This document shows positions 6,211-11,839 of a stretch of 34,957 nucleotides of DNA, one piece after another. This DNA is from Verrucomicrobiales bacterium. Its GTDB lineage: Bacteria; Verrucomicrobiota; Verrucomicrobiia; Verrucomicrobiales; DEV007. The translations under genes were made by a program, and so were the position numbers. Numbering within the stretch: the first letter of the stretch is position 1; every line of letters begins with the position of its first letter. The DNA lies in the NCBI GenBank assembly GCA_029233965.1, contig JARGOP010000048.1, forward strand, positions 1-34,957. The letters are read 5' to 3'. A model generated the notes under the pieces. It saw only the letters and a list, made by a program, of their open reading frames with translations, had not been told where the DNA came from and searched no databases.

Positions 6211-6552
6211 ATGAAAGAACTCTTTCGCGAACCGGACTTCACGACGATTGGGCATTATCAGTCCCTTCTGGAGACCTGCGGCATCAGGACCCATGTAAAG
6301 AACGAAACGGTCGCGCTCATGGGGGTGAGCGAAATTCCGATTCCCGACACTTTTCCCGCGCTCTGTGTGGTGAACAACGAAGACTTCGAACGCGCCTGGG
6401 AATTGATCCGTGAGCACCGGACGCGTAATGAGGCCCTGGTCGAATTTGAGCTGAGATGTGAAAAATGCGGTGAGGTGAGCCCGGGCAACTTTGACTCCTG
6501 CTGGTCCTGTGAGACCCCCTTGAAACCGGAGGAAGAAGCTGAGGAAAAATGA
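6211..6552 (+). CDS. DUF2007 protein with C-terminal zinc ribbon
   Basis: A 113-residue protein. The N-terminal half (about 1-68) has the DUF2007 pattern: a short helix ending in L-L-E-T-C-G-I, then a strand and V-x-x-E-D-F-E-R-A. This ferredoxin-like domain is thought to sense or bind something, but no ligand is known. The C-terminal part has C-E-K-C-G and C-W-S-C pairs about 13 residues apart, a likely zinc ribbon. Its TGA overlaps the next ATG in an ATGA junction, so translation is probably coupled to the GRDP-like gene. A minus-strand frame across the same bases is a shadow. Confidence 0.82.
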   Translation: MKELFREPDFTTIGHYQSLLETCGIRTHVKNETVALMGVSEIPIPDTFPALCVVNNEDFERAWELIREHRTRNEALVEFELRCEKCGEVSPGNFDSCWSCETPLKPEEEAEEK

Positions 6553-7268
6553 ATTCGCCCCTTTGGAGTGCCCTCGAGGCTTTCTCTTTCGACTCTCCCG
6601 GCGCCTCGTTCAGGTTCTCCGGGCGCCTGCGGCGGGAGAATGGATGGACCCTTGAGTTCACCAATCGCGTTCTCGAAGAGTATCGGCGGTTCCTGTATCT
6701 CTGTGTAGAGGCGGGGCATCCGGTGACGCCTTCGGATGCAGTCGATCAGGCATGGCACCTGCATCTTTGTTACACCCGATCCTACTGGGAGGATTTGTGT
6801 CGGGATACCATCGGACAGCCGATTCATCATGGACCGACACGGGGCGGAAAGGAAGAGGCGGAAAAGTTTGCCGATTGGTATGAGGCTACGATCCATTCCT
6901 ACACAACCCATTTTGGAAATCATCCTCCCGGTGACATCTGGCCGTCCGCCCCGGAACGATTTCGGCGTGCCGAATGGGTTCGAGTGGATAAGTCACGGAA
7001 TCTTCTCATCCCTGCGCATGCTTTTCGTCTCGCGCTTCTCTGTTCGGTCGTTGCCTTGACCACGGTTGGCTGCAAGATCGGTTCTGTTCAGGTCGCAACC
7101 GGTTTTGTCATCATTGCCATGATCTGCATCATAATTGCTCTCTTTTCCAGGCCGTGGAAAGGCGGCGGCGGCAAAGGCGGTGGAAGTTGTGGGGGTGGAG
7201 GAACAGGCGGTTGTGGTGGCGATCACAGTGGATGTGGCGGCGGGTGCGGCGGCGGATGTGGAAGCTAG
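6549..7268 (+). CDS. GRDP-like domain membrane protein with Gly/Cys-rich tail
   Basis: A 239-residue protein. The N-terminal part (about 35-130) has the GRDP-like (DUF1399) pattern: helical Y-R-R-F-L, then V-D-Q-A-W-H-L-H-L (65-73), a further T-R-S-Y-W helix, and H-H-G-P (93-96). Two hydrophobic segments lie near 153-174 and 182-200. The last 35 residues are almost all Gly and Cys, with five Cys set between Gly runs. Similar tails occur on TIGR04222-type membrane proteins. The function is unknown; the tail could bind metal, carry disulfides or be a low-complexity surface stretch. The start overlaps the DUF2007 stop by 4 bases. Domain recognition is from pattern only. Confidence 0.78.
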   Translation: MNSPLWSALEAFSFDSPGASFRFSGRLRRENGWTLEFTNRVLEEYRRFLYLCVEAGHPVTPSDAVDQAWHLHLCYTRSYWEDLCRDTIGQPIHHGPTRGGKEEAEKFADWYEATIHSYTTHFGNHPPGDIWPSAPERFRRAEWVRVDKSRNLLIPAHAFRLALLCSVVALTTVGCKIGSVQVATGFVIIAMICIIIALFSRPWKGGGGKGGGSCGGGGTGGCGGDHSGCGGGCGGGCGS

Positions 7269-9929: not shown

Positions 9930-9951
9930 TCCTCAACCCAACCCCGTGGGA

Positions 9952-11406
9952 TCACCAGGAGTAGGCACCGCCATTGATCCTTTCAACCTTGCGGATGAGC
10001 CACAGGTTGTGGTTCTCGATATCGGAGAAATTCGGATCCGTTGCCGCCGGATTGCGGACGTAGTAGGGCTTCGAGGCAAAGTATTCCTGCAGGGCGCGGG
10101 AGGCGAATGGATAGCCGTGGCGCGCGTAAATTTCGTTTCGTGCGATCGAAAGCTCTGCCGGCGTCAGGCTTTGCAGCACGGAACGGGAAAGGGTGCGCTG
10201 CGAGGAATAGGCAAAAATATCGGGAAAGGCCGCGTTGTTCGACTGTTCTCCCGGCATGACCTTTTTGCTGCTGATAAAAGGCCCGCCGTGTTCAGTCTCG
10301 ATCTTGAGGATCAGTGCGGCATTTTTTGTTTCGAGAGCGGTCACGGACGGGTTCTTGAAGGCCGGGATCTTCTCATACCAGGAAAGGCTGCCGAAATACT
10401 CCTGCAGAAACGGGCTGCTGAAATCGAATCCGTAGCGGGCGAAGATTTCGTTCCGGGCGAGGTAGAGTTGCTGAAGTCCCATCGGTTCAAGTTCTTCCCT
10501 TGTGAGTTCGCGCAGGTTGGAATCAGGAATCACAAATTCAGTGAACGAGGAAGAGCGTGCCTCCGGCATCTCTGAACCTCCGATCCGTTTTCCGAGACTG
10601 TAGGCGAAAGGGGTCTGGGTCTGATACACCCCGGTCAACCCTGCCGCACGGATCGCTCCCTCGGTTTCCTCCGCGACCCGTTTTTTTGTTTCGGCAAAAA
10701 CCTGATCCCAGTTTGAGTAGCGCTGCATGTCGGACTCGAGATTGATCGTTAGATAACCACCGTTCGCGGTCCCCAGGGCTGCGAGACCGGGCTCGGCAGC
10801 GGTAATGTTGACAAACCCCTCATGTTCAAAAAGCAGTGAATAGAGGGTTTTCCACGGTTCCACTTTTTCGTCTCCTTCCGCGATGACAAACTCCGGGGGA
10901 TAGCTGGAACAGCAGTCCGTAATGAGAATTTTAAGCCGACAGGGAAGCGCTTCGATGGCATTGGCCCATTCATCCCGACTCAGGGATGACTCATCGACTA
11001 AATCGAGAAACTGCTCACCCTTGGTCGGGTCTGGAATCATTCCATGGCCGGAAAAGTGGACGTAAACCGTGTCATCTTCGCCGATGGATGCGGTAAACGC
11101 TTCAAACTGCGAGAGGATATTCTCCCGCGTCGCGTCTTTTCCTTCGATGGTGAGGCGATTCAGCTTCACCCCCCATGACTGCTCGGAAAAATACTGAGTG
11201 AAAATGTTATCGAGGATGAACTTGTCGGAGGTGACCCCGCTATTGATTGTCGCAGCATCCCCCTCGTAGGCGTTGCAGAAGACGCCAAAGACATGGATCG
11301 CCCGCTCAGCATGGGCTTCGCGTGTCAGTGAGGCGACGAGGACGGCTGCGATCAGGAATAAAAATCTTCCCCCGCAAAGATGGCGGGCGAGTTTGTCGAG
11401 GCTCAT
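9952..11406 (-). CDS. Secreted caspase-fold (C14-like) protein with two YARHG domains
   Basis: A 484-residue protein with a signal peptide (hydrophobic core about 14-27, cleavage near 33). Residues about 35-270 look like a caspase/metacaspase domain: the catalytic His121 is in HFSGHG, and the catalytic cysteine is the second Cys of D164-C-C166-S-S. Two copies of a YARHG domain follow: RNEIFARYGFDF (about 318-329) with LQEYFGSLSWY, and RNEIYARHGYPF (about 423-434) with LQEYFASKPYY. YARHG domains are extracytoplasmic modules of unknown ligand. The protein probably acts in the periplasm or is exported as a cysteine peptidase. Both catalytic residues are present, so activity is plausible. It is transcribed away from the 69-residue gene and no partner gene adjoins it. 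Confidence 0.85.
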   Translation of the reverse strand: MSLDKLARHLCGGRFLFLIAAVLVASLTREAHAERAIHVFGVFCNAYEGDAATINSGVTSDKFILDNIFTQYFSEQSWGVKLNRLTIEGKDATRENILSQFEAFTASIGEDDTVYVHFSGHGMIPDPTKGEQFLDLVDESSLSRDEWANAIEALPCRLKILITDCCSSYPPEFVIAEGDEKVEPWKTLYSLLFEHEGFVNITAAEPGLAALGTANGGYLTINLESDMQRYSNWDQVFAETKKRVAEETEGAIRAAGLTGVYQTQTPFAYSLGKRIGGSEMPEARSSSFTEFVIPDSNLRELTREELEPMGLQQLYLARNEIFARYGFDFSSPFLQEYFGSLSWYEKIPAFKNPSVTALETKNAALILKIETEHGGPFISSKKVMPGEQSNNAAFPDIFAYSSQRTLSRSVLQSLTPAELSIARNEIYARHGYPFASRALQEYFASKPYYVRNPAATDPNFSDIENHNLWLIRKVERINGGAYSW

Positions 11407-11629: not shown

Positions 11630-11839
11630 ATGGGAACGACATTAGAACGCAACAAGAACCGGACTCGTCCTAAGAAGGCCGCCGGCAGGAAGAACCGTCG
11701 TCGTCGTGATCAGAAGAAGCGTCTCATCGCTCTTGGTATGGACGAGAAAGTGGTCGCTCAGATGAACTCCCGCGATGTCCTCACCGCACTGAAGCACCCG
11801 AAAAAGGTGGAAGCTGCTGCAGCGGCGAAGGATTCCTGA
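11630..11839 (+). CDS. Small, highly basic protein of unknown function
   Basis: A 69-residue protein. Residues 7-31 are dominated by Arg and Lys (a run of four Arg near residues 23-26). A short helical segment, ALGMDEKVVAQMNSRDVLTA, follows, then an Ala-rich end. No signal peptide or membrane helix is present. The charge suggests binding to RNA, ribosome or DNA, but that is inference. Coding is supported by the well-placed promoter at 11522-11550, a perfect terminator just after the stop, and a clear start ATG. I do not recognise the family. A related small basic protein may be widespread in Verrucomicrobiota; this was not checked. Confidence 0.75.
   Translation: MGTTLERNKNRTRPKKAAGRKNRRRRDQKKRLIALGMDEKVVAQMNSRDVLTALKHPKKVEAAAAAKDS

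Follow-up and report, generated by a model that had tools for sequence, protein, structure and literature searches.

A predicted exported caspase-like (C14) protein bearing two tandem YARHG domains, conserved within Verrucomicrobiales

The window analysed here, a 34,957-nucleotide stretch of a Verrucomicrobiales contig, carries a gene on its minus strand (positions 9952–11406) for a protein of 484 residues, delineated by its open reading frame, by Pfam matches and by comparison with its orthologues. From the N-terminus, the protein comprises a Sec-type signal peptide, a caspase-like peptidase domain of family C14 and two YARHG domains. An overlapping reading frame on the plus strand (9946–10575) is taken to be antisense. 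Upstream of the gene, and on the opposite strand, lies a small and very basic open reading frame of 69 residues (11630–11839, plus strand) that is also present in L021; elsewhere in the window, positions 6549–7268 (plus strand) encode a protein with a Gly/Cys-rich C-terminal tail and no Pfam match, which is conserved in L022.

In the signal peptide (residues 1–33; 11308–11406, minus strand), AHA|E comes after a hydrophobic stretch, and cleavage is predicted between AHA (residues 31–33) and ER. Both Ala31 and Ala33 of this A-x-A site are invariant across the six orthologues aligned, and inspection of the sequence revealed no lipobox Cys. Under a hydropathy rule with a cut-off of 2.0, the signal peptide scores 3.41, compared with at most 1.12 for five cytoplasmic controls. 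At the level of sequence, the signal peptide of the original prediction is upheld. The remainder of the 484-residue chain contains neither a transmembrane segment nor a cytoplasmic output domain. Export of the kind predicted would also give the YARHG domains the extracytoplasmic location expected of them.

The original prediction further held that prokaryotic caspase homologues are mostly discussed as cytoplasmic, such that an exported one would be unusual, and this view does not survive comparison with the rest of the order. A PF00656 search found C14 domains in 49 of 113 genomes, and all 31 of the C14 genes examined, mostly the best-scoring match per genome, have a signal-peptide-like N-terminus (30 by the hydropathy rule, which is crude, and one by eye). 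The genome under study has two other C14 genes that look exported, one with an FGE-sulfatase domain and one with a Cds6 C-terminal domain. Judged from their N-termini, exported prokaryotic C14 proteins are common, and they appear to be the rule in Verrucomicrobiales. A survey published in 2012 had likewise found transmembrane helices in 104 of 671 prokaryotic caspase homologues, the N-terminal ones being likely signal peptides, and described likely extracellular members, for which fratricide was among the roles suggested (PMC3501461). That suggestion, together with the abundance and, in places, clustering of exported C14 genes in the family, would suit a general secreted protease, deployed for nutrition or against neighbouring cells, with the YARHG domains binding foreign envelopes or particles. 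However, the signal peptide is the only secretion signal seen, and the neighbourhoods of the orthologues have no recurrent immunity-like gene; we regard such a role as rather improbable.

The C14 domain spans residues 34–273 (10588–11307, minus strand), with a p20-like core (approximately residues 34–170) and a p10-like part (approximately 195–273). Its Pfam match to Peptidase_C14 (PF00656) scores 34 bits (E = 3.1e-8) against a curated cut-off of 21.4, so that one outcome that would have counted against the original prediction, no C14 match at all, was not seen. The domain is nonetheless strongly diverged, sharing 17–23% identity with non-orthologous C14 domains, and its 34 bits contrast with the 127–141 bits reached by the genome's other two C14 genes. 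Because the score is low, the relationship was checked by further methods. Alignment with hhalign of six orthologous domains against thirteen canonical C14 domains from the same order gave a probability of 97.9% (E = 4.8e-13), superposing SGHG on AGHG and DCCS on DCCR, and thereby placing His121 (SGHG; 11044–11046, minus strand) and Cys166 (TDCC-S; 10909–10911, minus strand) on the C14 catalytic columns, at the very positions originally proposed. Both residues are invariant in 13 orthologues and in 25 aligned C14 domains, as are Asp164, which lies two residues before the catalytic Cys (10915–10917, minus strand), and Asp61 (11224–11226, minus strand). Across those 25 domains, 19 of them non-orthologous, the nine invariant columns are Tyr47, Asp61, Gly120-His121-Gly122, Asp164, Cys166, and Gln264 and Pro266 of the p10-like Q-x-P motif. 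The divergence from canonical C14 domains (34 versus 127–141 bits) could be that of a catalytically dead caspase fold serving as a binding or scaffold protein; against this, His121, Cys166 and Asp164 are retained in 13 of 13 orthologues, and we consider it very improbable.

A model of residues 34–273, built from this 25-domain alignment, has a mean pLDDT of 71.9, with most blocks of the p20 core at 77–96 and the p20–p10 linker (approximately residues 175–227) below 50. The model adopts the caspase–haemoglobinase fold characteristic of C14, confidently in the p20 core and less so in the linker. Its top Foldseek matches are the MALT1 paracaspase and metacaspases, and superposition with VIA-align gave an rmsd of 3.7–3.9 over 195–203 residues, with a Z-score of 13.5 to metacaspase-4 over 203 residues. 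In this caspase-like model, the His and Cys align with the catalytic dyad, as the original prediction would lead one to expect. A model of the whole chain, based on six sequences, was of poor quality (pLDDT 56) and too weak to indicate the domain arrangement. Taken together, sequence and model identify the domain as a real caspase relative, with both dyad and fold well predicted. A disulphide between the invariant Cys44 and Cys156 was also considered, and was rejected because Cys156 is replaced by Ala in two orthologues.

Among the closest known counterparts are the metacaspases, paracaspases and orthocaspases of MEROPS C14B, which share the caspase fold, the His in SGHG, the Cys in D-x-C and the Asp two residues before it. 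In contrast to these, the present protein is exported, by prediction, and has a C-terminal YARHG pair and a family-specific AEGxxxxxPW loop after the Cys; it is only approximately 10–20% identical to the solved members. In metacaspase-type (C14B) enzymes, the acidic residue two positions before the catalytic Cys would be expected to line the S1 pocket. For an acidic pocket that would accept Arg or Lys at P1, Asp164 is the invariant candidate, whereas Asp61, a possible second acid, depends on the alignment, being shifted by one residue in the hhalign and HMM alignments, two of the three compared.

Weak matches also connect the domain with defence-associated caspases: the PADLOC 'caspase' model scores 28 bits, and the NCBIfam model for the EACC1-associated caspase (NF047832) scores 29.4 bits, far below its cut-off of 140. 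These scores do not support assignment to a defence system, and the signal peptide speaks against a cytoplasmic caspase of cell death or phage defence. Moreover, no NACHT, TIR or EACC1 partners were found, nor were any defence genes recognized beside the gene, and we give this reading hardly any credence. Searches of viral contigs found nothing related to the full-length protein or to the C14 domain by itself, and plasmids yielded matches to the YARHG part only. Separately, 21 IMG/VR contigs (L054–L074) encode C14 domains, some of which resemble cytoplasmic caspase-family proteins.

The two YARHG domains occupy residues 290–370 (10297–10539, minus strand) and 398–476 (9979–10215, minus strand), the latter showing the highest conservation in the whole chain. 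Each exceeds the PF13308 cut-off of 27 bits, at 63.2 and 66 bits, respectively (E = 3.2e-36 for the two stretches), in agreement with the two copies originally proposed at residues 296–369 and 396–476. The second resembles in sequence the YARHG domain of Legionella lpg2210 (PDB code: 4g2a; DUF4424-YARHG), which differs in having a single YARHG domain, attached to a β-sandwich domain (DUF4424) and not to a protease. In a tree, the first and second copies fall in separate clades, implying that the pair was already present in the ancestor of the subfamily. YARHG has been proposed both to anchor extracellular peptidases (PMC3848476) and to bind peptidoglycan (PMC3355149), with outer-membrane lipid as another proposed neighbour of the binding site, and the literature that we found on YARHG reports no ligand. 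In the same genome, a Trypsin_2 protease that looks exported ends in a YARHG domain (L007:694–1767), which fits a general role for YARHG in placing proteases; YARHG-matching open reading frames of approximately 360 residues are found repeatedly in the genus, and are possibly the same protein.

A scan of public genomes retrieved five orthologues with 55–73% identity, all from Verrucomicrobiales assemblies. Among 75 genomes of the family, near-complete copies occur in 11 others, all of the same genus, some of them in pieces at contig ends, whereas a class-wide sample of 384 genomes gave a near-complete copy in only one other genome. Both C14 and YARHG were matched by Pfam in six of six orthologues scanned, and 13 of 13, all from Verrucomicrobiales, keep both YARHG copies, their core R-N-E residues, and His121, Cys166, Asp164 and Asp61. 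Mean pairwise identity across the 13 is 0.59–0.63 for C14, 0.61 for the first YARHG domain and 0.68 for the second, falling to 0.26 for the nearly unconstrained inter-domain linker (residues 274–292). Where dS could be estimated, dN/dS is 0.05–0.14 in the domains and approximately 1 in the linker, dS being saturated in several comparisons. With dN far below dS, the sequences indicate purifying selection on all domains; since orthologues at 54–73% identity also keep all parts, the gene is not a chance assembly. The protein is therefore correctly read, real, conserved and of a known kind.

This pattern of conservation, with both YARHG copies retained and the intervening linker not, would also suit a sensor, in which the pair is not an anchor and an extracytoplasmic ligand switches the protease on, as has been proposed for YARHG-kinase and YARHG-zinc-ribbon proteins. 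YARHG does occur alongside signalling domains, and one of its pockets has been suggested to accommodate a ligand (PMC3848476, PMC3355149). Nevertheless, a chain that lacks both a cytoplasmic output domain and any membrane-spanning segment beyond the signal peptide offers only the exported enzyme itself, and we think a sensor unlikely, albeit deserving of consideration.

The gene neighbourhood was rejected as a functional clue. Only near relatives share a block that includes aldolase/SDR and sulfatase genes, and although sulfatases adjoin some other orthologues as well, the genome (G000; 4.8 Mb) has approximately 154 sulfatase (PF00884) matches, so that such adjacency would often be expected by chance. 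Three genomes have a WD40-C14 gene either adjacent to the orthologue or at most a few kb away (L020:185–4962, L102:3910–7011 and L105:7087–10080); L020 additionally contains genes for a C14-FGE protein and an M15 peptidase.

The original prediction had also regarded the union of an exported caspase with YARHG as unusual. The same architecture was, however, published in 2012 for Bradyrhizobium A5ECX2, with a signal peptide, C14 and a tandem C-terminal YARHG pair (Coggill & Bateman, PMC3355149). By this published description, the two proteins are alike in domain order, one being alphaproteobacterial and the other verrucomicrobial. Within the same bacterial family, Pfam identifies C14 with three YARHG domains in L107, and C14, a spacer and one YARHG domain in L108, whereas the products of L109:1155–4478 and L111:2254–4842 (both minus strand) are long, match C14 or show C14-like motifs, and end in a YARHG-like region, according to sequence reading and search matches. 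All four share C14 and C-terminal YARHG with the present protein, and differ in their more canonical C14 domains and in having three YARHG domains, a spacer before one, or a long N-terminal region. In a tree of C14 domains, L108 falls among the canonical members. A single origin for the fusions in L107, L108 and the subfamily of the window was rejected (p-AU = 0.014, with the caveat of long branches), implying that the combination arose at least twice. The L107 locus (G669:C50:262000–281500) packs several C14 genes with signal peptides into 20 kb; the product of one ends in an FGE-type region, and that of another has three YARHG domains.

We consider it probable that the protein is a caspase-superfamily cysteine protease (C14, metacaspase/paracaspase-like) that is exported, cuts after Arg or Lys and is held at the envelope by its YARHG pair. 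The Sec system would carry it across the membrane via the predicted signal peptide, to act in the periplasm or at the cell surface. There, the C14 domain, equipped with His121, Cys166 and Asp164, should cleave after Arg or Lys, an activity and a specificity that we infer from Asp164 and from resemblance to the C14B branch. By analogy with other YARHG proteins, the pair most likely binds an envelope component near the peptidoglycan or outer-membrane lipid, which would keep the protease next to its substrates; these may be envelope or captured proteins, to be matured or degraded. The functions first suggested, processing of an envelope partner or ligand binding via YARHG, are plausible as predictions.

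What is new here is modest, namely, a conserved, diverged C14 subfamily that always carries the YARHG pair, and its distribution, along with the repeated pairing of C14 with YARHG within one bacterial family. More tentatively, this may be a distinct, vertically conserved Verrucomicrobiales subfamily of exported, Arg/Lys-specific C14B enzymes anchored in the envelope by their tandem YARHG pair, as one instance of a wider strategy, evolved repeatedly, whereby YARHG retains different proteases at that site. To our knowledge, exported bacterial caspase relatives have rarely been assayed, and both halves of the protein are understudied. It adds a test case rather than a new principle: a soluble, conserved subfamily that retains both the dyad and the tandem pair would make a convenient protein with which to identify the binding partner of YARHG and to ask whether envelope proteins are processed by exported C14 enzymes.
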